Shown: positions 11,841-37,802 of the stretch, one piece after another
Numbering within the stretch: position 1 is the stretch's first letter
Layout: the number at the start of each line of letters is the position of its first letter
Assembly: GCA_903876865.1 (NCBI GenBank)
Contig: CAIRBY010000756.1
Coordinates: 1 to 38,286, forward strand
Origin: an uncultured Acidobacteriia bacterium
GTDB lineage: Bacteria; Acidobacteriota; Terriglobia; Bryobacterales; Bryobacteraceae
Length of the DNA: 38,286 nt
Direction: 5' to 3'
Position numbers and translations under genes: made by a program
The notes under the pieces: model-generated
Databases searched by the model: none
The model's input: only the letters and a program-made list of their open reading frames with translations
What the model was told of the DNA's origin: nothing

Positions 11841-11990
11841 ATGTGGCTGCAGCAAGGTGATGGTGCGATGGGCGGACTGGCGGCGGGAATAGACAAGCGG
11901 GCGTGGGGCGTGGCGGATCATGTCTCGCGTGCGCGAGCTGGTGAACGCCGCCAGAATCCGTGGCGGAAGAGGAAAGCGACCATCACGTAG
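11841..11990 (+). CDS. 49-aa basic hypothetical protein
   Basis: MWLQQGDGAMGGLAAGIDKRAWGVADHVSRARAGERRQNPWRKRKATIT; below ORF-track length. Confidence 0.3.
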   Translation: MWLQQGDGAMGGLAAGIDKRAWGVADHVSRARAGERRQNPWRKRKATIT

Positions 11991-12004
11991 TAACTCTGAC
12001 GACG

Positions 12005-13042
12005 ATGCTGATTGGAAACGCAAAGAAGACCGCAAAAGTGTTACCGATGCTGGTGGAGCAGGCGAGGGAGAATTTCCCGGGCGATGTAAACCGGCAGCGG
12101 ACGGCGGTGCTGCTGGCATGGATCAATCTGGCGGGCATTCCAGGTTGGCAGCCGGAGATGGTGGGCAAGGTGGAAAAGGCGCTGCGGCTGTTCGCGCTGC
12201 TGGTAGTCTGCGTGGCGCTGGGTCATGGGGCGACGACGACGGTGGCGCAAACACAGATCGGCGCGCCGGACGCGCAGCACCTGGCGACGGGGACCATCAC
12301 GATCACGGCAACGGCACCATTCACTGCGGCGGACGGCGTGAGGGTGGAGATGACTCCGCTGACGGTGGAGATCCGGAACGGCGCGTTCAGCGTGAACCTG
12401 GAGCCGAACGATACGGGGACGCCGGCGGGGACGCAGTACGTGGCGGTGTGGGCGCTGGACGGCGCGCGATCGCGTACCGAGCGCTGGGTGGTGATTACGA
12501 GTGGCTCCACGCTAGCCGTGGGGGATGTGGTGGCGACTGTGATTGCGCCCACGGGTGTAGTGCAGCCGGGGCAGATCGCGCAGCATGGCGCCACCGCGGG
12601 GCAGACGCTGGTGTGGAGCGGGAGCACCTGGCTGCCGGGCGCGGTGACGGGCGGATCGGGCGGATCGGCCGGGCCGAACATTGCAGGCAGTTCGAATGTG
12701 ACGGCCGTGACGGCGTCGCAATCGCCGGTGGTGATTGGCAGCGGGTTGACGGCCGCGCACTACGCGGTGCGCTACTACGCGAGCGTGAATACGCCGTGCA
12801 CGGCCGGGGCCGAGAGTGTGAGTTTTCAGTTCACCTGGACGGACGCGGCGGCGCGATCGTTGACGACGGGGTCTCTGGTGATGGGGTCGTCGAGCCAGAA
12901 TTCGCAGGGGTATTTATCGGGCTTATTCGAGTTGTATGCCGGCGCCGGAACGAATGTTGCTTACGTTTCAACGGTGGCGGGGGGCTGTCTGACGGGGACG
13001 GCCAGTTATGACGTGCATGCGGTATTGGAGCAAATTCAATGA
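12005..13042 (+). CDS. Possible LLH-holin-like N-terminus followed by signal/TM helix and secreted beta-rich region
   Basis: VEQARENFPGDVNRQRTAVLLAWINLAGIPGWQPEMVGKVEKAL + LRLFALLVVCVALGHGATT + Thr/Ser/Gly-rich domain; alternative start ATG 12158. Confidence 0.55.
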   Translation: MLIGNAKKTAKVLPMLVEQARENFPGDVNRQRTAVLLAWINLAGIPGWQPEMVGKVEKALRLFALLVVCVALGHGATTTVAQTQIGAPDAQHLATGTITITATAPFTAADGVRVEMTPLTVEIRNGAFSVNLEPNDTGTPAGTQYVAVWALDGARSRTERWVVITSGSTLAVGDVVATVIAPTGVVQPGQIAQHGATAGQTLVWSGSTWLPGAVTGGSGGSAGPNIAGSSNVTAVTASQSPVVIGSGLTAAHYAVRYYASVNTPCTAGAESVSFQFTWTDAAARSLTTGSLVMGSSSQNSQGYLSGLFELYAGAGTNVAYVSTVAGGCLTGTASYDVHAVLEQIQ

Positions 13043-14022
13043 GAAAACGACTTTTGATGGCGGGCGCGCTGTTGGCCGGGCAGGCGATGGCGCAGGTATC
13101 GGGCGCGGGGCAGCTGGGCTGCCAGACGGCGCCGGTGGCAGGAGCGGCGTGGAGTAGCGCCACTTCGCTGAACACGACGCAGATTCTGATTACCAATGCG
13201 CCGGTGGGCCAGGTGGGCATCACGCTGGACACCACGACCACGATCACGGCGGGCGCGGTGACGTTTTTGGGCGACTATGGCGATGGCAACTTCGTCACGG
13301 TGCCGGCATCGCAGATCATCGCACCGGGGACGTTCGCCTCGATTGGCAATCCATACACGCTGATCGCGAGCACGAATCAGCCGTTCGTGGTGATCATGAA
13401 CGGCTTTTACAGGTTGCAGTTGAAGCTGAGCACCGCGATAACGGGGTCGGGGACGCTGACGCCGTATGTGGTGCCGCTGTGCTACACGCCGGCCGCGCCG
13501 ATCGGCATTTACAACACGTCGTTGCCGACGCTGACCAACGGCCAGGCGGCGATCAACCAGACGGATGCGAACGGGCGGCTAATTGTGAGCGGCACGGGCG
13601 GGACGTTCCCGGTGACGGAGAGCGGCACCTGGACGGTCCAGCCGGGCAATACGGCGAATTCGACGCCGTGGCTGGCATCGATCACGCCGAGCACGGGCGG
13701 GGGCTGGTCCAAAGCGAAGTACGCCACACAGACAACGACGGTTCAGACAGTGAAGGGATCCGCCGGCATTCTTGGCGGATATTTCATTTCAAATACGGCA
13801 AACAGCGCTAGTAGCTGCGTGCAGGTGTTCGATTCGACGAGCGCGACACTGGGCAGCACCACGCCGAACATGATCTATGAAATTCCGGCGAACGGGGCGG
13901 CGAACGTGGAGTTCGTGAACGGAGTGAACATGGCCACGGGCATCCAGCTGGCGGCGGCGACGACTTGCACGGGCAGCACCGCACCGACGAGCGGGCTGAA
14001 CATCACGGTTTATTACAAGTGA
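13039..14022 (+). CDS. Signal-peptide-bearing beta-rich phage protein
   Basis: MRKRLLMAGALLAGQAMAQVSG; C-terminal half resembles virion-type beta domains (GGYFISNTANSASSCVQVFDS...PTSGLNITVYYK). Confidence 0.65.
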   Translation: MRKRLLMAGALLAGQAMAQVSGAGQLGCQTAPVAGAAWSSATSLNTTQILITNAPVGQVGITLDTTTTITAGAVTFLGDYGDGNFVTVPASQIIAPGTFASIGNPYTLIASTNQPFVVIMNGFYRLQLKLSTAITGSGTLTPYVVPLCYTPAAPIGIYNTSLPTLTNGQAAINQTDANGRLIVSGTGGTFPVTESGTWTVQPGNTANSTPWLASITPSTGGGWSKAKYATQTTTVQTVKGSAGILGGYFISNTANSASSCVQVFDSTSATLGSTTPNMIYEIPANGAANVEFVNGVNMATGIQLAAATTCTGSTAPTSGLNITVYYK

Positions 14023-14030
14023 GGACGACG

Positions 14031-14714
14031 ATGAAGCGCGCATTCTTCCTTGGATTGATCAGCGCCTACACGGCATTCGGCCAGGTCTACGCCGTGACGG
14101 TGAATCAGGCGGGCGCCAACTACTCCACGGCACCGACAGTGACGCCGAGCGGTGGCGGGTGTACGACCCAGCCGACGTTTGTCGCGAGCGTGAGCAACGG
14201 CGGCTTGAACTCGGTGGCACCGACATTCATGGGCACGGGGTGCACGAGCGCGCCGAGTCTGGCAATCGGCGGGCCGGGAACGGGCGCATCGGCGGCGGCG
14301 GTGCTGCTGCCGGCGAGCATCACGGTGATGGCGGCGGTGCCGAGCACGGGCGGCAACGGGATTCAGCCGGCGATCGGCGGCACATATACGGCGTGGCAGT
14401 TCGCCTGCTGGCTGACGGTGCCGGCGGCGCGGGTACCGTTTTACGCGAACAACGTGTTCCGGATGCCGGGCACGTCCCAGGTCTCGCAGGTGATTCCGGG
14501 GCCGGCTGGTTTTGGCACCGCGCTGGCGACAGGAATCGTGACGGAGTTGGTGGATGTGGTGAACGTGACGTCATCTGTGGCTGTGGGCGTGGTGCAGGCG
14601 GCGGTGGTGAGCAGTTGCTCGGCGCAGCAATCCTCGCTGAACGCGTGGAATCCGTGGGCGAAATACGGATCCAGCTACCTGAACGGAGTTTGGACGGGAG
14701 TGACGATCCAGTGA
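14031..14714 (+). CDS. Secreted protein with fibre-like 'GxxYsxxPtVt' modules
   Basis: MKRAFFLGLISAYTAFGQVYAVTVNQAGANYSTAPTVTPSGGG... Confidence 0.65.
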   Translation: MKRAFFLGLISAYTAFGQVYAVTVNQAGANYSTAPTVTPSGGGCTTQPTFVASVSNGGLNSVAPTFMGTGCTSAPSLAIGGPGTGASAAAVLLPASITVMAAVPSTGGNGIQPAIGGTYTAWQFACWLTVPAARVPFYANNVFRMPGTSQVSQVIPGPAGFGTALATGIVTELVDVVNVTSSVAVGVVQAAVVSSCSAQQSSLNAWNPWAKYGSSYLNGVWTGVTIQ

Positions 14715-15448
14715 AACGCCTGCTGTTGCTGCTGGCCTCAATTGCCGCCGTGGCGCCTGGGTTTGGGGCCATTACCGTGGTCCAGACCCAGAATGGCGCC
14801 TGCACTACGAGCAACGGCAGTTTTACGACGGTGCCGCAGTCCGGGAGTTGCGGCTTCAGCGCCAGCGTCACAGCCGGCAATGTGGTGGTGCTGATCATCG
14901 AGACCCGGCAGAACACGCCAGCCATCAGTTCTCTGACCACCGCGGGCAAGGTCTCTACGTACAACTCCGCATACAGCCTTACGTCAGGCGGCGCAGTAGG
15001 GATCTTTTTCTATTGCGGCGCGGTGACGACGACCGGAACAGAGACGGTTGTGGCCAACGTGAGCCAGATCTATTTCGGTCACCTGTTCATGCTGGAGGCA
15101 AGCGGAACGAACGGCTGCACGGCGGACGGGACTGCTACGGGATCGAGTTCGCTCAGTCCTGGTTCTATCACGGTCTCGGTGGGGAGCTTGGTGATCAATG
15201 GGCTTTACGACAACACGACGAACTCAGACCTCGTGCTCACCGCTGGCTGGACGACGATTGGGCTGAACAACAACGGTGGAGTGTACAGGTCGGGCGCCGC
15301 GCAGTACATCAAGGCTGTGACCACCAGCTACAATCCCGCCAGCACGGGCAGTACCGACACCACCGTCAACGGCATCATTGCGATTCAGGCGGCAGCGGGA
15401 ACAACGTGTAAGGGCGGCTTGGCGCTGACGGGGACGGCGTGTAAGTAG
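14711..15448 (+). CDS. Secreted beta-rich protein
   Basis: GTG start; VKRLLLLLASIAAVAPGFGAITVVQTQNGACTTSNGSF. Confidence 0.65.
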   Translation: MKRLLLLLASIAAVAPGFGAITVVQTQNGACTTSNGSFTTVPQSGSCGFSASVTAGNVVVLIIETRQNTPAISSLTTAGKVSTYNSAYSLTSGGAVGIFFYCGAVTTTGTETVVANVSQIYFGHLFMLEASGTNGCTADGTATGSSSLSPGSITVSVGSLVINGLYDNTTNSDLVLTAGWTTIGLNNNGGVYRSGAAQYIKAVTTSYNPASTGSTDTTVNGIIAIQAAAGTTCKGGLALTGTACK

Positions 15449-15473
15449 GGCAAATGCGGACTAAGGGGCGGGC

Positions 15474-15749
15474 GTGAACGAACTGATCTCACTTATTAAG
15501 TCGCTGGAAAATGCCGGGGTTGCCGGATTGATGAGTTACTTGATCTACCGATTGGTGGATAAGTGGGCTCCTAAGTTCCTGGATGCGCAACAGGAAACGG
15601 CAAAGGCGATGCTTACTCTGGCGGCGAGCGTCAAGGAAGGGCAAGGCGAACAGCGGGAGATGCTGATTGCGATTCGTGTGCTGGCGACGGAGATCGGCGA
15701 CGTGAAGGGGCTACTGCGGGATATGGCGGCGGACAAGGAGAACGCGTAA
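15474..15749 (+). CDS. Small protein with weak TM segment (holin-like candidate)
   Basis: GTG start; NAGVAGLMSYLIYRLVDKWAPKFLDAQQETAKAMLTLAASVKEG. Confidence 0.45.
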   Translation: MNELISLIKSLENAGVAGLMSYLIYRLVDKWAPKFLDAQQETAKAMLTLAASVKEGQGEQREMLIAIRVLATEIGDVKGLLRDMAADKENA

Positions 15750-16096
15750 TGGCTGCGAGCGATGTGGAACGGGCGCGGCATGCGCTGGAGAAGGGAGCCA
15801 TCCTGCGGGTGTTGCAGGATGCGTACGGTGGGCCCGCAATGACGCTGAGCGGGCTGGCATCGGTGTTGGACAATCTCGGGTTCCCGATGTCGCCGATCGG
15901 ATTGCAGTTCGCCTTGACTTACCTGGGCGACACCGGCTTTGCGCGAGTGGTGAAGGCGAAAGACCTGCCAGGCTTCCGGCACGATAGGTTGCGGCAGGGA
16001 GAATCCCCGGAGACAGTGATGACGGCACAACTTACTCCGCTGGGACTTAAGTTACTCGACGGGACGGTGGCGGAGGACGAACAAATCCGGTTCTAA
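15749..16096 (+). CDS. Mu-like phage hypothetical protein upstream of gp27
   Basis: MAASDVERARHALEKGAILRVLQDAYGGPAMTLSGLASVLDNLGFPMS winged-helix-like; conserved position before DUF3486. Confidence 0.6.
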   Translation: MAASDVERARHALEKGAILRVLQDAYGGPAMTLSGLASVLDNLGFPMSPIGLQFALTYLGDTGFARVVKAKDLPGFRHDRLRQGESPETVMTAQLTPLGLKLLDGTVAEDEQIRF

Positions 16097-16097
16097 G

Positions 16098-16637
16098 ATG
16101 CCGCGCCTGAACACAGTTACGGAAGGGTGGAGCGACCTGGCGAAGCGGATCCTGGCCGAGGGTGCGGCGGCGGGCAACACGGCCGCATACGTCACGGAGC
16201 GGATTGTCACCGAGGCGGGCGACGACGTGGCGGAGCGTACGGTATCGCGGCGGCTGGCGGAATTGCGCGAAGCGGCGGCGGTGCGTACGGCGGCGCGGGA
16301 GCGGATGGAAGACCTGGTGGCGGCGCTGAAGGCCGGGAACGGGAGCGCGGCCGAATACATCCAGGCGCTGGCGATGCGGGCATTGGAACTGGAGCCGGAC
16401 GCGCTCACGGCGGCCGACCCGGTGAAGCTGCAGCGGCTTTCGCTGAAAGGCGAGGAACTGCGGCTGAAGAAAGACCAGATGAAGTTGAAGGCGCGGATGG
16501 TGGCACTGGACGAGCAGCGGCTGGCGTTGCTGGTGGAGCGGGAGAAGCGCGCGATCGCGATCTTGCAAGAGGGCAAGGGCGAGACGATGACGGCGGAAGA
16601 GCGGCTGAAGAAGGCGCGGGAGTTTTATGGGCTGTGA
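16098..16637 (+). CDS. Mu gp27-like protein (DUF3486), probable small terminase
   Basis: AKRILAEGAAAGNTAAYVTERI...ERTVSRRLAELR, helical C-terminus MTAEERLKKAREFYGL; directly before terminase. Confidence 0.75.
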   Translation: MPRLNTVTEGWSDLAKRILAEGAAAGNTAAYVTERIVTEAGDDVAERTVSRRLAELREAAAVRTAARERMEDLVAALKAGNGSAAEYIQALAMRALELEPDALTAADPVKLQRLSLKGEELRLKKDQMKLKARMVALDEQRLALLVEREKRAIAILQEGKGETMTAEERLKKAREFYGL

Positions 16638-16884
16638 AGCGGGGAAGGACCGAGTTGGCGGGACAGGCCGGGAGGCATGTCCGACGAAAGCGACGTGCCC
16701 GAATTGCGGGACGGATGTGATGGTCACGGGGTTTGACATCTACACCGACCGGAAGATCATGTACATGCGCTTTTCGGCGGGAGTGGGATCTGTGGCCGTG
16801 GCGGATCGGGAGCGGCCGGATGTGCATTGCGCGGCCTGTCACGCGGTGTTGCCGTGGACCGCGGCTGAACTGAGGGCTGCGTAG
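16627..16884 (+). CDS. Small zinc-ribbon protein
   Basis: CPNCGTDVMV...CAACHAVLPW. Confidence 0.6.
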   Translation: MGCEAGKDRVGGTGREACPTKATCPNCGTDVMVTGFDIYTDRKIMYMRFSAGVGSVAVADRERPDVHCAACHAVLPWTAAELRAA

Positions 16885-16885
16885 C

Positions 16886-18283
16886 ATGGTGAGCCCCACG
16901 ATTGTGAATCTGCTGGAGTGGCAGAAAAACTGGATCAACGACGAGGCGCGGTACAAGCTCGTGGTGGCGTCCGCACAATCGGGGAAGAGCTTTGGGACGA
17001 GCCTGGAATTCACGATGGACGCGATTGGCGGGAAAGCGCCGCTGGGGATTTTTCTGAGCGCGAGCGACCGGCAGTCGATGGAGCTGATGGAGAAGGTGAA
17101 GCTGCATGTGAAGGCGATGGGCGCGGCGAGCGAATACGACACGGAGTTCTGGAAGGGGACTTCGATCATGCAGCACACAGCGCGGTTTGGGAACGGGTGC
17201 AGGCTGATTGCGCTGCCGGCAAATCCGGACACGGCGCGCGGGTATTCGGGGAATCTGTTTTTCGATGAGTTCGCGATGCACCGGGATTCGAAGGCGATCT
17301 GGGCGGCCGGCATGACGCGCGCCACGCGCGGGTACAAGGTGCGAGTGGCGAGCACGCTGAAGGGGCTGAAGAACAAGTTCGGCGAACTGACGAAGATGCT
17401 GGGGCTGGCGGACGGGGTGGCGCCCACGCCGAATCCGCTGGTGCGGAATGGGTGGAGCGGGCATTGGGTGGATATCTTCATGGCGGCGAAGCAGGGCGCG
17501 CCGGTGAATCCGGAGCAGATCCGGCAGAGCTTGGACGATGAAGATATCTGGCTGCAGGAGTACTGCAACATGCCGATGGAAGACGGCAGCGACTTTATCG
17601 CGCTGGCGTTGATTCTGGCATGCGAGAACAGCGAGGCTTCGCTGGATTGGGACGGCAATGCGACTCCAGGGCTGTGTGCGGGCTTCGACGTGGCGCGGAA
17701 GCGGGACGGATCGATTCTGGTGATTGGTGAGCCTGTGGGGCCGCTGGCGATCGTTCGCGGGGTGAAGGTGCTGAGCCGTTTGAGCTTCGCGGAGCAGTTC
17801 AAGGTTTGCGCCGAAGTGGCGGAAGTGGTGGAGGCGAGCGGCGGCCGGTTCGCGGTGGACGCGACGGGGATCGGCATGCAGATCGCGGAGCAGCTGAGCG
17901 AGAAGTTTCCCTGCGTGGAAGCGGTCAACTTTGCGACCAGCGTGGAGACGGGGCAACTGGACAGCGAGAACAAGCCGGTGAAGGTGCTGGTGAAAGAACG
18001 GATGGCCGGCATCCTGAAGCGGCGGGTGGAAGAGCGGATGATCTGGCTGCCGGAGAGCGTGCAGCTGCGGCGCGAGTTCCAGGCGGTGAAGCGGTATGTG
18101 GGGCCCACCGGCGCGGTGCGGCTGGATTCAGAGCGGACGGATAAGGCTCACGCGGACTGGTTCTGGGCCACGGCGCTGATGTGCGCGGCGATGGAAGGGC
18201 AGGCGCGGCGGCAGCCGATGAAGACGCATTCGGCGATCGGCGGCCAGACGGTGTTGGGGAGCTTCATGGGAAGGGTATTCTGA
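16886..18283 (+). CDS. Terminase large subunit (Mu gp28-like)
   Basis: ATPase-like VVASAQSGKSFGTSLEF, LFFDEFAMHRDSKAIWAA; nuclease-like LCAGFDVARKRDGSILVI, FAVDATGIG. Confidence 0.9.
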   Translation: MVSPTIVNLLEWQKNWINDEARYKLVVASAQSGKSFGTSLEFTMDAIGGKAPLGIFLSASDRQSMELMEKVKLHVKAMGAASEYDTEFWKGTSIMQHTARFGNGCRLIALPANPDTARGYSGNLFFDEFAMHRDSKAIWAAGMTRATRGYKVRVASTLKGLKNKFGELTKMLGLADGVAPTPNPLVRNGWSGHWVDIFMAAKQGAPVNPEQIRQSLDDEDIWLQEYCNMPMEDGSDFIALALILACENSEASLDWDGNATPGLCAGFDVARKRDGSILVIGEPVGPLAIVRGVKVLSRLSFAEQFKVCAEVAEVVEASGGRFAVDATGIGMQIAEQLSEKFPCVEAVNFATSVETGQLDSENKPVKVLVKERMAGILKRRVEERMIWLPESVQLRREFQAVKRYVGPTGAVRLDSERTDKAHADWFWATALMCAAMEGQARRQPMKTHSAIGGQTVLGSFMGRVF

Positions 18284-23733: not shown

Positions 23734-24171
23734 ATGACGAAAACGACGATGAAACTTGCGATGGTCCTGGCGCTGCTGCTGAGCTGTGGCGCATGGGGGG
23801 CGGGCACTCCGGCCGTCACGGCGCTGACGAGCACGGGTTCCCTGACGGCGGTCTATTCGAGCGCCTGCACCACGGCAACTTGTGTGGTGGTACCGATGAA
23901 CGCACTGGCGAATTCGGAGACGTGGCAGATCACGGGCACGTTCACGGGCACGGTGACGTTTGAGGCTACGGTGGACGGGACGAACTGGGTGGCGGCATCG
24001 GTGGTACCGGTGGGCGCGACGCGTACGCTGACGACGACGGCAACGGCCGCGGGCGTGTGGCAGATGAATACGACGGGCTTCGCCTATGTGCGGGTGCGCT
24101 GTTCGGCATTCACGAGTGGAACGATCGTGGTGACGGGCAAGCGCGCGGGCGCCGTGCCTCCGGCGCAGTAG
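23734..24171 (+). CDS. Signal-peptide-bearing beta-sandwich protein in head module
   Basis: MTKTTMKLAMVLALLLSCGAWGAG; ITGTFTGTVTFEATVDGTNWVAAS... typical virion beta domain. Confidence 0.65.
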   Translation: MTKTTMKLAMVLALLLSCGAWGAGTPAVTALTSTGSLTAVYSSACTTATCVVVPMNALANSETWQITGTFTGTVTFEATVDGTNWVAASVVPVGATRTLTTTATAAGVWQMNTTGFAYVRVRCSAFTSGTIVVTGKRAGAVPPAQ

Positions 24172-24180
24172 GACACGAGC

Positions 24181-24918
24181 ATGACGATCACTTCCATTTC
24201 GCCGTTGTCTGGACCCCCTGGCACAACGGTGACGATCACGGGGACCGGCTTCACGGCCGGTTCCCGTGTTTGCTGCCCGGCGGCGGTGGCAACGACGTAC
24301 GTTTCGGCGACGCAGGTGCAGGCGGAGATTCCGGCGAGCTTCCAAGGGCCGGACGGGACGAATGTGCTGGTCGCGGTATTCGTGGCGGGCGCGGATGGGA
24401 CGGCTACGAACGGGGTGTTGTTCACGGTGCAGATGCCGGCGGCGAAGCTGCAGACCTACACGACGCTGGACGCGGTGTGCAGCGAAGTGCCGGGCTTTGC
24501 GCGGGGCGGGCAGATCGCGGACGGGACGATCCAGCTGTGGATGAGTTCGGTGGCGCAGGTGATCAAGGGCGCGATGTTACGGCGCGGCTTGAGTCTGAGC
24601 CCCGCGGACTGGCAGCAGGCAGGGACGGACGGGACGATGGCTCCGGCAGAGGTGCTGGAACTGATCAACCGGATGGGCGCGGCGGCGCGCCTGGCGGCGG
24701 CGGTGGTGAGCCTGTTTGGAAACGCGGACGCGGCGTTCAGCAAGAACCTGAGCGCCGCGTACAAGGACGAACTGGCGCGACTGGAGGAAGGGGCGTACGA
24801 CAAGAGCTTCAAGCCGGCGGCGGCGACGATGGAGAGCGGTCCGCTACTGGCGTATGGAGACACGAGCCGGGCGGACGGGGATTCGAGCGCGGCGTTCACG
24901 AAGGAGAAGGTATTCTGA
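24181..24918 (+). CDS. IPT/TIG-domain + head-tail connector-like (Mu gp36/DUF1320-like) fusion
   Basis: N-term SISPLSGPPGTTVTITGTGFTAGSRV; C-term LQTYTTLDAVCSEVPGFARGGQIADGTIQLWMSSVAQVIKGAMLRRG. Confidence 0.65.
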   Translation: MTITSISPLSGPPGTTVTITGTGFTAGSRVCCPAAVATTYVSATQVQAEIPASFQGPDGTNVLVAVFVAGADGTATNGVLFTVQMPAAKLQTYTTLDAVCSEVPGFARGGQIADGTIQLWMSSVAQVIKGAMLRRGLSLSPADWQQAGTDGTMAPAEVLELINRMGAAARLAAAVVSLFGNADAAFSKNLSAAYKDELARLEEGAYDKSFKPAAATMESGPLLAYGDTSRADGDSSAAFTKEKVF

Positions 24919-25400
24919 TGAGCGATTTTTCGCAGACGACGTTGTTTGCGGCGATGGCGAACGTCATGGCCGGAGTGCAGCAGCAGGTGGCGCAACTGAA
25001 TGCGGCGATGCAGGCCGACTATCTGGTCACCTTCAACAATTGGGCGCAGCGGGTGCTGGCGGGGCAGACGCCGGAAGTGAATCCGCCGCAGCCGCCGAAC
25101 GCGTATGTGGTGGGGAGTTTCACGGATGCGACGAACGCGGCGGCGCAGTGGGCGTACCCGGTGGTGGGCACGCAGCCGGTATGCGTGATGCCTCCGTTGC
25201 CGGTGATGCCGGTGGTGGTAGCGGCGACGGCCGCGCCGGCGAGCACGGCTTCGGCGCAGGTGGGCAGCAAGCAAAATGTGCCGGTGGGCGACACAATGCC
25301 GGTGGGGTACAAGGCGACGGCGCCGGACGGAGCGGTATGGCAGAAGATGGCCAGCCTGACGCCGTTCGGGACGGCGTACTACTACGAGAGGGTGGCATAA
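24918..25400 (+). CDS. Hypothetical virion-module protein
   Basis: MSDFSQTTLFAAMANVMAGVQQQVAQLNAAMQADYLVTFNNWAQRV; ATGA overlap. Confidence 0.55.
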   Translation: MSDFSQTTLFAAMANVMAGVQQQVAQLNAAMQADYLVTFNNWAQRVLAGQTPEVNPPQPPNAYVVGSFTDATNAAAQWAYPVVGTQPVCVMPPLPVMPVVVAATAAPASTASAQVGSKQNVPVGDTMPVGYKATAPDGAVWQKMASLTPFGTAYYYERVA

Positions 25401-25405
25401 CGGCG

Positions 25406-25591
25406 ATGAGCAAATTTCTGGTGTGGTTCAAGGGCTTCGCGGCGACGGTGATTGGCGGCGCGGTAGCGGGCGCGGCGCAGGCGGCGCAGGGTAGCGGCGT
25501 GACGGCATCGCAGGTGAAGGTGGCGGCGATCACGGGCGCGGTTTTGACGGTGGCTGCGTATTTTAAACAGGCACCGACGCAGGGGCAATAA
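25406..25591 (+). CDS. Small membrane protein, holin-like candidate
   Basis: FAATVIGGAVAGAAQAAQGSGVTASQVKVAAITGAVLTVAAYFKQ. Confidence 0.5.
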   Translation: MSKFLVWFKGFAATVIGGAVAGAAQAAQGSGVTASQVKVAAITGAVLTVAAYFKQAPTQGQ

Positions 25592-25596
25592 GGGAC

Positions 25597-25890
25597 ATGG
25601 ACAGGTTCGTGCTGGCGGCGATCATCGGGCTGGTAGTAGTGGTGCTGGGGACGGCGCTGGTGGGGACGTTTGGGACAGCGGGAGGCGCGGTTGAAGATAC
25701 TGTACGCGTTTGTGTTTGCTCTCGGGATTATGCAGTGGATTGCTGCAAATCCGGTAAGGTACGCGTCGCGGCATGGCCCGGGGTTTCTGGGGCCTGCAGC
25801 GGCCGATCTGGAGCCGAGGGTGATGATGGTGCCGGAGAGTTCGTTGAAGCGCTGGCGGGCGTGGAATCGCGGCTAAAGGGGAGTTTGTAG
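25597..25890 (+). CDS. Small membrane protein; only the N-terminal part looks protein-like in this frame
   Basis: MDRFVLAAIIGLVVVVLGTALVGTF; overlaps 25670..25876 in +1 frame. Confidence 0.4.
   Translation: MDRFVLAAIIGLVVVVLGTALVGTFGTAGGAVEDTVRVCVCSRDYAVDCCKSGKVRVAAWPGVSGACSGRSGAEGDDGAGEFVEALAGVESRLKGSL
25670..25876 (+). CDS. Small membrane/spanin-like candidate overlapping 25597 ORF
   Basis: TTG start; LKILYAFVFALGIMQWIAANPVRYASRHGPGFLGPAAADLEPRVMMVPESSLKRWRAW. Confidence 0.45.
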   Translation: MGQREARLKILYAFVFALGIMQWIAANPVRYASRHGPGFLGPAAADLEPRVMMVPESSLKRWRAWNRG

Positions 25891-25891
25891 G

Positions 25892-26452
25892 ATGTTCCGG
25901 TTCCGGTTGGAAATAGCGGGCGAGGTGGCGATGGATCGCGGCATCGCCCGCTTTGCGGATGGGGTGGCGGACTACCGGCCGATCTGGCCTTCGATCGAGG
26001 AAGATTTCTACCTGCAGGTGAAGGATCAGTTCAAGACACAGGGGACGGAAGGCGGGGAGGCGTGGCAGGAGTTGAATCCGGAATATGCGCAGTGGAAGGA
26101 AGTGCATTACCCGGGCATGCCGATTCTGCAGCGGACGGGGGATTTGTACAACTCGCTGACGAGTTCGACGGACCCGAACGCGGTGTTGGTGGAAGGGCGG
26201 AAGAGTTTGACGCTGGGGTCGCGGGTACCCTACGGGATTTATCACCAGAGCAGCGAGCCGCGGACTTCGCATTTGCCGCGGCGGCCGGTGATTCAGTTAC
26301 CGGAGGCGTTTAAGCGGACGGTGATGCACCACATTCAGACGTACCTGGTGCAGGTGGCATCACAGAGCGGGTTCCGGCAGGGTTTGGGGCCGCTCGATGT
26401 GTCGCGGCTTTCGGGCAGTTTGATGCGGCAGGGCGGGTATTTTCAGCGATGA
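25892..26452 (+). CDS. Phage virion morphogenesis/tail completion protein (Mu gpG-like)
   Basis: GEAWQELNPEYAQWK...GMPILQRTGDLYNSLTSS...VPYGIYHQ is the PF05069-type pattern. Confidence 0.85.
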   Translation: MFRFRLEIAGEVAMDRGIARFADGVADYRPIWPSIEEDFYLQVKDQFKTQGTEGGEAWQELNPEYAQWKEVHYPGMPILQRTGDLYNSLTSSTDPNAVLVEGRKSLTLGSRVPYGIYHQSSEPRTSHLPRRPVIQLPEAFKRTVMHHIQTYLVQVASQSGFRQGLGPLDVSRLSGSLMRQGGYFQR

Positions 26453-31051: not shown

Positions 31052-31750
31052 GTGATTCTCAGATGCGGGGATTGCCTGGAATTGCTGCCTGCGATCGCGG
31101 ACGCGAGTGTGGAAATGGTGTTGTGCGATCTGCCGTATGGCGTGACGGATTGCCGGTGGGACCGGAAGATCGATATCCGGAGATTGTGGGAGCAGTGGCG
31201 GCGGGTGGCGGCGCCGGGCGCGGCGGTGGTGTTGTTTGCGCAGGGGAAGTTTATTGCAGAGCTGATGAACGCGTCGCCGTACGGGTGGTTCCGGTACGAC
31301 CTGGTGTGGGACAAGCGCGGGGCGAGCGGGTTTCTGAATGCGAAGCGGGTGCCGATGCGGGCGCACGAATCGGTACTGGTATTCGGGCAGCGGCTGACGT
31401 ACCGGCCGCAGGGATTGCGGCGGGTGAACCGGCCGGTGCGGGCGAAGACGGGGACCACAGTGTATGGAGCGCACGGGAACGTTTCGCGGCAGACGCATAC
31501 GGGATATCCGACGAGCATTTTGCGGTTCGCGCGGGAGCAGAGCGCAGGGGCGTGCGCGAAACCGGTGGCGTTGTTGGAGTGGCTGATCCGGAGCTATACG
31601 GCGGAGGGTGCTGTGGTGCTCGATAGCGCGATGGGGTTGGGTTCGGCGGGCGTGGCGGCGGTGCGGAGCGGGCGGGAGTTTGTGGGGATGGAGATCGATC
31701 CGGAGCGGTTCAAGCAGGCGAAGGCGCGGATTGAAGGGGCGGTGGCGTAA
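31052..31750 (+). CDS. DNA methyltransferase (N4/N6 amino-MTase)
   Basis: Catalytic MVLCDLPYGVTDCRWD; SAM-binding VVLDSAMGLGSAGVAAVRSGREFVGMEIDPERFKQAKARI. Confidence 0.88.
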   Translation: MILRCGDCLELLPAIADASVEMVLCDLPYGVTDCRWDRKIDIRRLWEQWRRVAAPGAAVVLFAQGKFIAELMNASPYGWFRYDLVWDKRGASGFLNAKRVPMRAHESVLVFGQRLTYRPQGLRRVNRPVRAKTGTTVYGAHGNVSRQTHTGYPTSILRFAREQSAGACAKPVALLEWLIRSYTAEGAVVLDSAMGLGSAGVAAVRSGREFVGMEIDPERFKQAKARIEGAVA

Positions 31751-34260: not shown

Positions 34261-37200
34261 ATGATTCATATTGCGCCAATCTGGGAACGGACGGGAGTGG
34301 TGGCAGGGTTTGTGCTGCGGCGGCAGTACACAACCGTGGCCAGCGTTCTGTACGAGGATGGCGTGGGTCCGGATGGGGAGCCGGTGGTGACGCCGGTCGA
34401 GGTGGACGTGGTGGTGGCGAGCGCGGTGCCGCTGCTGAGCAATGGGGTGCTGTTCGCGCAGCTGGGGATGTGGCGGCCGACTAGCTGGCCGACTGCGCCG
34501 GCGGCGCCGCTGAACCAGAAAAGCTGGCTGCATTACAACAGCACGACGGGGCTGTACTGGAACGCGAGCACTACGCCTGCGACTGCAGGGGATGCGCTGT
34601 TGGGTTGGGTGGTGTGCGACGGGACGGGCGTGATTCTCACATCGTCGCGGCAATTGGGGGGTGGGGACGAGGAGACGGTGGCGGTGCCGGTGGGCCCGGT
34701 GTTGCCGGCAAATGAGGGGATGGCACCGAACGTGACGGGCGCGTCGGTGAGTGTGGCCTATGTGATGGTGGGCAACGATCCGTTCGCACTGGTGCAGGGA
34801 TCGTTTAACCTTCCGACAACGGACCCGAATTACGCGCGGCTGAAATCGGTGGTAATTTCGGCGACTGGGCCGGGCGGGACGGTGGGGCTGGAGTTGTGCC
34901 GGCTGTACGCGCCGTTTTCGGGCACGTCGCTGGTGTTCAACGCCCTGGCCTATATTCCGCTGGGAGGCGGCGCAAATTCAGGGAGCTGGACGGCCACGTT
35001 TGCGGCGGTCAACGATACCGGGAGTGTGACGGCGTCGCCGGCGACGGCGGCATTCACAATTGACCGGATCGGCGTGTACTCGGTAGTTGGCAGCGACACG
35101 GCGGTGCGGGATATCGACTTGAGTAACCAGTTAACGTCCACCAGCATTTCCGCGGTGCCGACGCTGCTGGCGGCGGACTTTCCTCAGAATATCAGTCTGT
35201 GGCTGAGCAAGGGTGCGCTGTTCAATGAACAGATCACGGCCGCGGGCGCGGGCTACACACCGGGGACATACGCACTGGGATTCGGGAGTGGAAACGCCGC
35301 AGGCACATTCATAGTAAACGGCAGCGGGCATGTTTCGAGTGTGGCAATTACCAGCGGCGGGGATAGCTATACGGGCAGCGTGGCGTTGGTGTTTGCGGGG
35401 GCCGGAGCGGGCTCCGGAGCGGCGGGCACGGCGGACGTGCTGTTCGATTACGCGGGCTGGCAACTGATGAGCCAGGCGGGGCAGGCGCTGTTGCTAAACG
35501 AGCTGGTGCCGGGAGCGGCACAGACGTGGATCATCGCGGCGGCAACGGGGGCAATTCAGGACACGGGTCCGACGCCTTCGGCGGTGCTGACGGGGTATCC
35601 CTACTATGCGGCGGTGAGTGGCGGGTTCACGGTGGCGACACTGGGGGCACCGAGCGCGACGGCCATCACGGATGGCGGATTAGGCGTGGCAACGTGTGCG
35701 GTGGCGACGGGTGGCGCGGGCTACACAGCCGGGACGTACACGGTGACGGCCGCGGCTGGCGGCGCACAGATCAAAGTGACGTGTGCGGGCGGCGTGGCGA
35801 CGGTGGCGAGCGTGGTGGCGCCTGGCAAGGGATATTTGACACCTCCGAGCTTCGGGGGCGGCTTCGGCGGTGGGGCTGGCGCGACGTTCACGGTGACGAT
35901 CGGGGCATACCAATTCATCGACGCATATGGGGTGCCGGACTGGGCAATCGCGGCCGTGACGTTCACTACACCGGGGAAAAAGGACAAAAATGCGTGGTCC
36001 ACGGTGCTGACGTTCCGGGCCACGGATGCGGCGGGGAATCCGGCTGCGCCTGAGAATGGCGGGGTCGAAGTCGCTGTGGGCGAGTGGGTGAATGACGGCC
36101 AGTTGGCGGTGTGTACGGACATCGCGGACTATGGGTTTCAGCCGACGGGGGACACGCACACGTATGGTGAGCTGAAAATTTACCAGTTCTCGCGGAACGT
36201 GGATGTGACGAAGGCGAACTTCCTGGACACGACGCACTGCATTTTGCAGACGGGTGCGTTTGGCGGGGCGAGCTATCTGCGGGTGGCGTTTGGGACACCG
36301 GCGTCGAATACGTTGAGGCTGGATAAGACCGATTCGACGACACTGGGACTGGGTCTGGCTGTGGATGGGAGCAATAAGCCAAAGGCCAATCTGGGCAACG
36401 GACTGACAACCAGCAGCGGCGCAATCACGGTGAATCTGGGCAACGGACTGACGCTGAGCGGCGCGGCGGTGACGCTGAACCTGGGTAATGGCCTGCAGAT
36501 GAGCGGCGCGGCCGTCCAGGCGAATCTGGGGAACGGGCTGACGCTGAGCGGGTCCGCCATCACGCTGAATCTGGGCAATGGCCTGCAAATGAGCGGCGCG
36601 GCGGTGCAGGCTAATTTGGGCGGTGGCCTGACCATGAGCGGCGGCGCGATCGCGGTCAACCTGGGCAACGGGATGACGCTGAGTGGCGGGCAGCTGACGC
36701 TAAATGTGGGGAACGGCGTCCAAATCAGCGGCGGGGTGGTGCAGGCGAATCTGGGCAATGGTACAACGCTGAGCGGCGGCGCGATCACGGTGAATCTGGG
36801 CGGCGGTCTGACGATGAGCGGGGCCGCGGTCGCGGTGAATGGCGGGACGGGGCTGACGGTGGGGGTGACGCTTTCGATCAGCAACGGCGGAGTCGGACCG
36901 ACCCAGATTTCGAGCGTCAATGTATCTCAGCTGAACGCGGGCACGATGACTGTAGGGAGCGGGGGAATCAGCTTCAGTGGCACGGGTGGTGTCTCGGTAT
37001 TGAGCGGCGGCAATATCGCAGCCACACCTGGTTACGTGGCGGGCGCGCAGGTGTACTCCAGCGCGATTTCGGGGATGGCCTACTACGTGACGGGCGGCGT
37101 GGGCGTGATCAATGTGAGCGGGCAGTTCGTCGGCACAGGTGTGTATTGCCCCTCATACGGCGTCGCTGGCAGCGGTTTCAACCCGTACGTGGGCGGCACA

Positions 37201-37287
37201 CAATATTACGGGCAAAGCCTGACCTATCAAATTGCTGACACGAATGGCGGACTGCACACGGTGAAGGGCGGGGTGATCGTAAGCTGA
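34261..37287 (+). CDS. Tail fibre with beta-rich Gly/Thr modules and 15-residue repeat shaft
   Basis: 1008 aa; GAGYTPGTY...GGDSYTGSVALVFAG modules, repeated NLGNGLTLSGAAVTL units. Confidence 0.85.
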   Translation: MIHIAPIWERTGVVAGFVLRRQYTTVASVLYEDGVGPDGEPVVTPVEVDVVVASAVPLLSNGVLFAQLGMWRPTSWPTAPAAPLNQKSWLHYNSTTGLYWNASTTPATAGDALLGWVVCDGTGVILTSSRQLGGGDEETVAVPVGPVLPANEGMAPNVTGASVSVAYVMVGNDPFALVQGSFNLPTTDPNYARLKSVVISATGPGGTVGLELCRLYAPFSGTSLVFNALAYIPLGGGANSGSWTATFAAVNDTGSVTASPATAAFTIDRIGVYSVVGSDTAVRDIDLSNQLTSTSISAVPTLLAADFPQNISLWLSKGALFNEQITAAGAGYTPGTYALGFGSGNAAGTFIVNGSGHVSSVAITSGGDSYTGSVALVFAGAGAGSGAAGTADVLFDYAGWQLMSQAGQALLLNELVPGAAQTWIIAAATGAIQDTGPTPSAVLTGYPYYAAVSGGFTVATLGAPSATAITDGGLGVATCAVATGGAGYTAGTYTVTAAAGGAQIKVTCAGGVATVASVVAPGKGYLTPPSFGGGFGGGAGATFTVTIGAYQFIDAYGVPDWAIAAVTFTTPGKKDKNAWSTVLTFRATDAAGNPAAPENGGVEVAVGEWVNDGQLAVCTDIADYGFQPTGDTHTYGELKIYQFSRNVDVTKANFLDTTHCILQTGAFGGASYLRVAFGTPASNTLRLDKTDSTTLGLGLAVDGSNKPKANLGNGLTTSSGAITVNLGNGLTLSGAAVTLNLGNGLQMSGAAVQANLGNGLTLSGSAITLNLGNGLQMSGAAVQANLGGGLTMSGGAIAVNLGNGMTLSGGQLTLNVGNGVQISGGVVQANLGNGTTLSGGAITVNLGGGLTMSGAAVAVNGGTGLTVGVTLSISNGGVGPTQISSVNVSQLNAGTMTVGSGGISFSGTGGVSVLSGGNIAATPGYVAGAQVYSSAISGMAYYVTGGVGVINVSGQFVGTGVYCPSYGVAGSGFNPYVGGTQYYGQSLTYQIADTNGGLHTVKGGVIVS
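36388..36880 (+). repeat. Eleven degenerate 45-bp (15-aa) tandem repeats
   Basis: Consensus NLGNGLTLSGgAvtv; unit starts checked at 36388 and 36433 (45-bp period). Confidence 0.85.
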
Positions 37288-37802
37288 TGCACCTGCTACT
37301 TGCACTCGCGCTGGCCGTTCTGGGGCCGTTTACGGCTGCCAATAACTACGCCACCAACCTGATGGGGCCGACCGACACGCGGGTAGATACGTGGGGCACG
37401 GCCGATTCACAGGTCTGGCAGCAGAGCTTCCGGCCACCTGCCGGTTATCGGGTGCGTGTACTTCGGCTGTGGGGTGACCTGGTGGCGTGGCCGATGGTAT
37501 TGCCTGGCGAGCGGCCGGTGGCACCTGGTCAGTACGCGGGTGTGCTGGTGGGATTCCAAACCACTGCGCGCGATGGGTCGGACCGGTGCTGGCCTTGCGC
37601 GGACAACACGTTGTTGTATCTGCAGGGGGCTATGCACGCGGAGCCGGTGCGAATACCGTTCGACCAGCGCGTTTCGACGCTGTTGGAGGCGGACAACATT
37701 TTGGCGGTGAAGGTGGCGGACTGGCTGAATACGCTGGGACGGCCGGTGCACATGGAGGTTACCTACCGGGTAACTTATCGGTTCGAAAAGGAGACCAATT
37801 GA
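37287..37802 (+). CDS. Signal-peptide-bearing protein downstream of fibre
   Basis: MHLLLALALAVLGPFTAANNYATNLMGPTDTRVDTWGTADSQVWQQSFRPPAGYRVRVLRLWGDL. Confidence 0.55.
   Translation: MHLLLALALAVLGPFTAANNYATNLMGPTDTRVDTWGTADSQVWQQSFRPPAGYRVRVLRLWGDLVAWPMVLPGERPVAPGQYAGVLVGFQTTARDGSDRCWPCADNTLLYLQGAMHAEPVRIPFDQRVSTLLEADNILAVKVADWLNTLGRPVHMEVTYRVTYRFEKETN

Follow-up and report, generated by a model that had tools for sequence, protein, structure and literature searches.

The sequence evidence suggests that four consecutive genes of a Mu-like phage, here called A to D, form a variable cassette of Sec-exported, disulfide-containing, fibre- or adhesin-like late proteins that may block adsorption at the surface of the infected cell. 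We hold this reading as a whole at about even credence, with the blocking function as its least certain part. Sec signal peptides are predicted for these four proteins and for a fifth, E, encoded next to the capsid gene, and their export is strongly supported since the signals are kept despite sequence drift, the cysteine counts are even and the feature recurs in related phages.

Gene block and phage context

The window, that is, the whole stretch of 38,286 bases analysed here, is one complete contig of a 7.27-Mb draft genome and encodes a Mu-like transposable phage. Judging from what related genomes encode, its host is probably an acidobacterium. Genes for a MuA-type transposase (phrog_310, E-value 1e-72), a MuB-like protein (phrog_296, 2e-29) and a Gam-like protein (phrog_491, 3e-17) are found together with Mu-type head genes for terminase, portal, I-type protease, capsid and a G-like neck protein, with a tape measure gene and, at the 3' end, with fibre-like genes. 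This intact gene set rules out host contamination of the contig, and the original prediction was right to place the block inside a phage operon. Genes A to D follow one another in the interval bounded by the GemA-like region and the terminase genes, their ends overlap or nearly touch, and no separate promoter above chance was found for the block. The features discussed below are:

11960-12157, forward strand: in-frame stretch 5' of A; its counterpart in the relative L142 is a separate small gene (570-860); the stretch probably lies outside mature A
12161-13042, forward strand: gene A; predicted Sec signal, conserved beta-sandwich A-domain (~110 aa), linker and small C-terminal beta domain
13039-14022, forward strand: gene B; predicted Sec signal, beta-rich, 4 Cys; its start codon shares ATGA with the stop codon of A
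14031-14714, forward strand: gene C; predicted Sec signal, beta repeat known from phage virion proteins, 4 Cys
14711-15448, forward strand: gene D; predicted Sec signal, beta-rich, 6 Cys; translation starts at a GTG that overlaps the C stop codon
15474-15749, forward strand: small membrane protein also conserved in L142-L144; its gene separates the block from the gp26/gp27-like and terminase genes
23734-24171, forward strand: gene E; predicted Sec signal, YomS/XepA-like beta-sandwich; directly 3' of the major capsid gene
37287-37802, forward strand: gene F; hydrophobic N-terminus, weak possible signal, 2 Cys

The first protein had been taken to start at 12005; its signal is instead led by ATG 12158, GTG 12161 or GTG 12170. 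Elsewhere in the window, a neck-type protein in gp36 position (24181-24918) carries an N-terminal TIG/Ig-like domain (Pfam TIG, E-value 1e-10) and is conserved in L142-L144 with 43-53% identity, and a DNA methylase gene (31052-31750; N6_N4_Mtase, E-value 3e-19) follows the tape measure gene and precedes the fibre genes. The same genome encodes another Mu-like terminase, with 33% identity, on a 3.6-kb contig (L042, G000:C18).

Signal peptides and cysteine content

Signal peptides were assessed in the 44 candidate genes of the window with a home-made score built from h-region hydropathy, n-region charge and the -3/-1 rule and applied to all in-frame starts. Of 11 known signal peptides from E. 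coli, ten scored 4.6-6.2 and PhoA was missed; because every start is sampled, single positives may be false, and 31 of 114 host genes reach 4.5. Genes A to E scored 5.46, 5.37, 4.75, 4.91 and 4.99, respectively, and by this score possess the n-, h- and c-regions and the cleavage motif of Sec-exported SPI substrates, while all other genes of the window remained at about 4.1 or less. Thus the four consecutive signal-like N-termini of the original prediction were recovered in A to D, and of the two further signal-bearing proteins that it had named, E was retained whereas F, which lacks n-region charge, was only borderline (3.84). By our own arithmetic, the probability that four of five positives are adjacent by chance among 44 genes is ~0.002. 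On reading the sequences, a lipobox with Cys at the cleavage site is absent from A to D; E has LLSC.

The mature proteins A, B, C and D hold 2, 4, 4 and 6 Cys, which agrees with the earlier description of the block proteins as cysteine-containing. A set of 47 signal-bearing proteins was picked by hand before cysteines were counted, spurious frames and lysis-type proteins being left out; 36 of them have an even, five an odd and six a zero mature cysteine count, compared with 92 even and 113 odd counts among other genes of the same phages (n = 205; Fisher p 2.5e-7). With one member per homology cluster and the phage Tunturi_1 added, about 23 of 27 counts were even (p 1.6e-4). Even counts of this kind point to disulfide pairing outside the cytoplasm, E with 3 Cys being an exception. 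Chance hydrophobic N-termini are ruled out by the separation of the scores, the conservation of the signal in homologues (seen for A and E) and the cysteine parity.

Occurrence in other phages

Thirteen relatives with terminases 44-64% identical were found in IMG/VR, and 11 of them carry Sec-signal-bearing, beta-rich proteins, usually between the early genes and the terminase, 3' of the capsid gene in the head region, or at both sites. None of these proteins was found in L143, and the sole matches in L226 were judged to be lysis lipoproteins. A filter for signal-bearing and beta-rich proteins detected 25 of the 311 genes of the lineage, spread over 11 of its 14 loci (window included); it is strict in that the window itself contributes just two of its proteins. 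In the other terminase-matched loci, 31 of 3432 genes passed the filter, located in 23 of the 222 loci, and on control contigs of the host genome it detected one of 114 genes. In another Mu-like group (L241-L243, L254, L258, L261-L263), a conserved signal-bearing protein with the mature start QQxGDQ or similar is encoded ~6-7 kb downstream of the terminase; its gene probably follows the capsid gene.

Similar proteins are predicted in Tunturi_1 (PP887698), a cultured, apparently lytic podophage that infects Tunturiibacter of the Acidobacteriota (PMC11924767). Signal scores are 5.43 for gp12, 4.28 for gp13 (just under the cut-off), 5.91 for gp14, annotated as 'tail spike', 4.76 for gp16 and 5.75 for gp17, annotated as 'virion structural protein'; mature gp12, gp13, gp14 and gp17 contain 20, 10, 20 and 32 Cys. 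The text of the paper is silent on signal peptides, and integrase or recombinase genes are annotated only in Tunturi 3-5, not in Tunturi_1 (PMC11924767). No signals were found in structural and fibre genes in the stretches of Tunturi_3 and Tunturi_4 that were read.

The block had also been assigned to the lysis-gene position of Mu-like genomes, which holds by synteny: in the terminase-homologous Mu-like phages compared (Pasteurella phage AFS-2018a, Microcystis phage Mwe-Yong1, B3, StopSmel, Thiobacimonas P1, Rhodovulum P1), amidase or lysozyme genes, in some with an annotated holin, lie between the GemA/Mor and terminase genes. In the window this usual, though not obligatory, place of endolysin and holin between the middle regulators and the terminase is occupied by A to D. 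We rejected A to D as lysis proteins, since Pfam and PHROGs gave no match of A to F to peptidoglycan hydrolase, holin or spanin families and since the lysis genes of relatives come 3' of the capsid genes. By eye, L142 has a lysozyme-like gene there, and L231 one that is signal-bearing and resembles a lytic transglycosylase. Small hydrophobic ORFs are located at this place in the window (24918-25892), and no endolysin was recognisable among the window genes scanned.

Homologues and structural models

The A-family signals are kept despite divergence in both Mu-like and unrelated phages. All 13 family members from different phages begin with a signal-like stretch of unconserved sequence followed by the conserved domain; nine score at least 4.5 and the rest 3.65-4.43. 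Homologues of A are located in tail-tip operons of non-Mu-like phages or prophages (L380, L382, L384, L422-L425), where the A-domain is followed by collagen-like, beta-helix-like or other fibre modules; beta-helix-like sequence was recognised by eye in L382 and L423. In all of these loci except L423, the A-family gene lies between distal-tail-like and tail-hub-like genes. An A profile found matches in 137 of the 150 host-family genomes, with prophages among the top matches. Five host loci were read in detail; they are chromosomal and encode one protein of 424-436 aa each, with a signal, the A-domain and further beta domains. An AlphaFold2 model of A (mean pLDDT 76) shows a signal helix and a beta sandwich, and in Foldseek against the PDB the A-domain comes closest to tail-tip chains of Bxb1 and to the DEV collar, with marginal E-values of 0.005-0.04 at a probability of 1.00. 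The modelled likeness of the A-domain to phage tail-tip and collar domains is suggestive, not strong.

C matches the virion structural/head closure repeat of PHROGs (E-value 2e-6 to 6e-6), a repeat present in 21 phage records including tail and structural proteins. B and D returned little or nothing when host genomes, phage records and viral contigs were searched with them: homologues of B with hydrophobic, signal-like N-termini were found in the phage L194 and, with no evident phage genes around, on the chromosome of G031 (L040), and D had no detectable homologue in these sets, Pfam or PHROGs. For F, none was detected in Pfam, PHROGs or the relatives. At 14530-17255 of the host-family locus L040, genes for phage-like beta proteins with Sec- and Tat-like signals form a chromosomal cluster that has no evident phage genes around it.

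The AlphaFold2 model of E (pLDDT 80) shows the C2-like beta-sandwich disc fold of XepA/YomS, matching YomS (6i5o) in Foldseek with an E-value of 2.2e-5 and a target TM-score of 0.77; XepA was also matched. Among 80 viral loci with an E domain, 72 are below and eight above the signal cut-off, and L299, a locus from a lineage member, is just below it at 4.45. Signal-bearing proteins of the same homology cluster as E are encoded in the head region of L142, L225, L228 and L232. E is located directly after the capsid gene and not in a lytic cassette, and no amidase or holin family was matched among its scanned neighbours.

Discussion

We propose that the A to E proteins would be made with the late genes of the phage, translocated by Sec, cleaved and oxidised in the periplasm, and that the mature proteins would not act in the cytoplasm but outside it, probably at the surface of the infected cell. 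There their most likely targets would be glycans or receptors of the infected or dying cell, and binding to these may keep co-infecting phage and released progeny from adsorbing to the cell. Of the functions offered by the original prediction, namely receptor mimicry or exclusion, adhesion and a periplasmic stage, none is singled out by the sequences. We favour such a role late in infection over a trait of the prophage alone because of the tight gene overlaps, the lack of a separate promoter above chance and the signal-bearing spikes of the apparently lytic Tunturi_1.

A different fate of the exported proteins would be to form disulfides in the periplasm and to join virion tails or heads at lysis. 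We consider such periplasm-matured virion fibres unlikely, yet keep them as a candidate because of the tail-operon positions of six A-family genes and the signals in the annotated tail-spike gene cluster of Tunturi_1. The fibre or beta-helix modules at C-termini and the likeness of A and C to virion domains also agree with this reading, as does the position of E after the capsid gene combined with its fold, for which docking to capsid vertices is also proposed by the XepA authors (PMC6834076). Both virion assembly and display on the cell surface are compatible with the tail-operon position and the virion-type folds. Tailed phages are thought to make their receptor-binding proteins in the cytoplasm, and we know of no periplasmic route of fibre assembly in them. 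Action at the cell surface is preferred because the window also encodes fibre-like genes without signals (34261-37287), because host chromosomal homologues are exported without any virion, and because XepA is reported to be missing from mature particles (PMC6834076); signal-less fibre-like genes near the A gene of L423 likewise speak against virion fibres. It is unlikely, too, that acidobacterial phages of several unrelated lineages build part of their receptor-binding apparatus outside the cytoplasm, with fibres, spikes and head-surface proteins exported by Sec, receiving disulfides in the periplasm and joining the virions no earlier than lysis.

Exported factors that bind or degrade polysaccharide of the envelope or matrix, and so free the progeny, are a rather more doubtful explanation. 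Tunturi_1 gp17 has a Beta_helix match and a chitobiase C-terminal domain, L142 contains a CBM5/12-like stretch, Tunturi_2 gp14 is annotated as pectin lyase, and the beta-helix-like sequence of L382 and L423 would suit such an activity. In A to E of the window, however, Pfam and PHROGs gave no match to an enzyme family or a beta-helix, and no catalytic residues were identified.

Lysogenic-conversion morons, that is, surface adhesins expressed by the prophage to the benefit of the lysogen, have a precedent in lom of phage lambda, and the variable gene content of the cassette and the A homologues in genomes of the host family would be consistent with them. We assign them little probability, as the genes have overlapping ends and no promoter of their own above chance and as the same feature occurs in Tunturi_1, which has no predicted integrase or recombinase. 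XepA-like accessory lysis proteins, which would disturb the membrane from outside, are suggested by the lysis-gene position and the fold of E and are nevertheless very improbable, because E lies outside the block, the domains of A to D are fibre-type or without assignment, and L142 and L231 have their lysis genes after the capsid gene.

On the preferred reading of surface blocking, the Sec-exported, fibre-like proteins that recur in phages of Acidobacteria would represent a widespread strategy of surface blocking or adhesion; otherwise they may represent a new assembly route. Their lead domain, the A-domain, is shared with an exported protein that is nearly universal in the host family. The cultured Tunturi_1 makes these two possibilities directly testable.

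Comparison with known systems

The spike genes of Tunturi_1 resemble those of the window in being a cluster with predicted Sec signals, mostly even cysteine counts and fibre- or spike-like products in an acidobacterial phage. They differ in that Tunturi_1 is an apparently lytic podophage, and no sequence homology to A to E was detected. Within the open-access literature we found no paper that describes signal-bearing tail fibres as a class, and according to one paper the target proteins of phage DGRs lack signal peptides.

XepA and YomS of the B. subtilis prophages PBSX and SPbeta share the beta-sandwich fold with E (PMC6834076). That paper describes XepA as a phage protein that is exported past the membrane, has a link to lysis and does not occur in mature particles; E is likewise predicted to be exported. 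In contrast to E, with its predicted Sec signal and its place after the capsid gene, XepA and YomS sit in a lytic cassette, and the accessible part of the paper reports no signal peptide for them (PMC6834076).

In architecture alone, the A family is close to the MAT fibres of Bdellovibrio bacteriovorus, which consist of a signal peptide, a conserved beta-rich domain of ~130 aa, a mosaic phage-fibre-like stalk and a variable tip (PMC10769870): its signal directly precedes a conserved beta domain, and its C-termini are mosaic. MAT fibres are cellular (PMC10769870), whereas the A family is phage-encoded, and we do not file it as a MAT member. The S74 chaperone was not matched in the ten proteins scanned, and an approximate MAT N-domain motif gave nothing useful in the loci searched.

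Llp of phage T5 and Cor of lambdoid phages are small, phage-encoded, exported lipoproteins that block receptors and superinfection at the outer surface. The block has in common with them that its proteins are phage-encoded and, as predicted for A to D, exported and, as proposed, active at the outer surface; Llp and Cor are small lipoproteins, whereas A to D have no lipobox, are beta-rich and are partly fibre-like. The block proteins would be no lysis enzymes; they would resemble the MAT fibres of Bdellovibrio in their build and Llp of T5 in their purpose.
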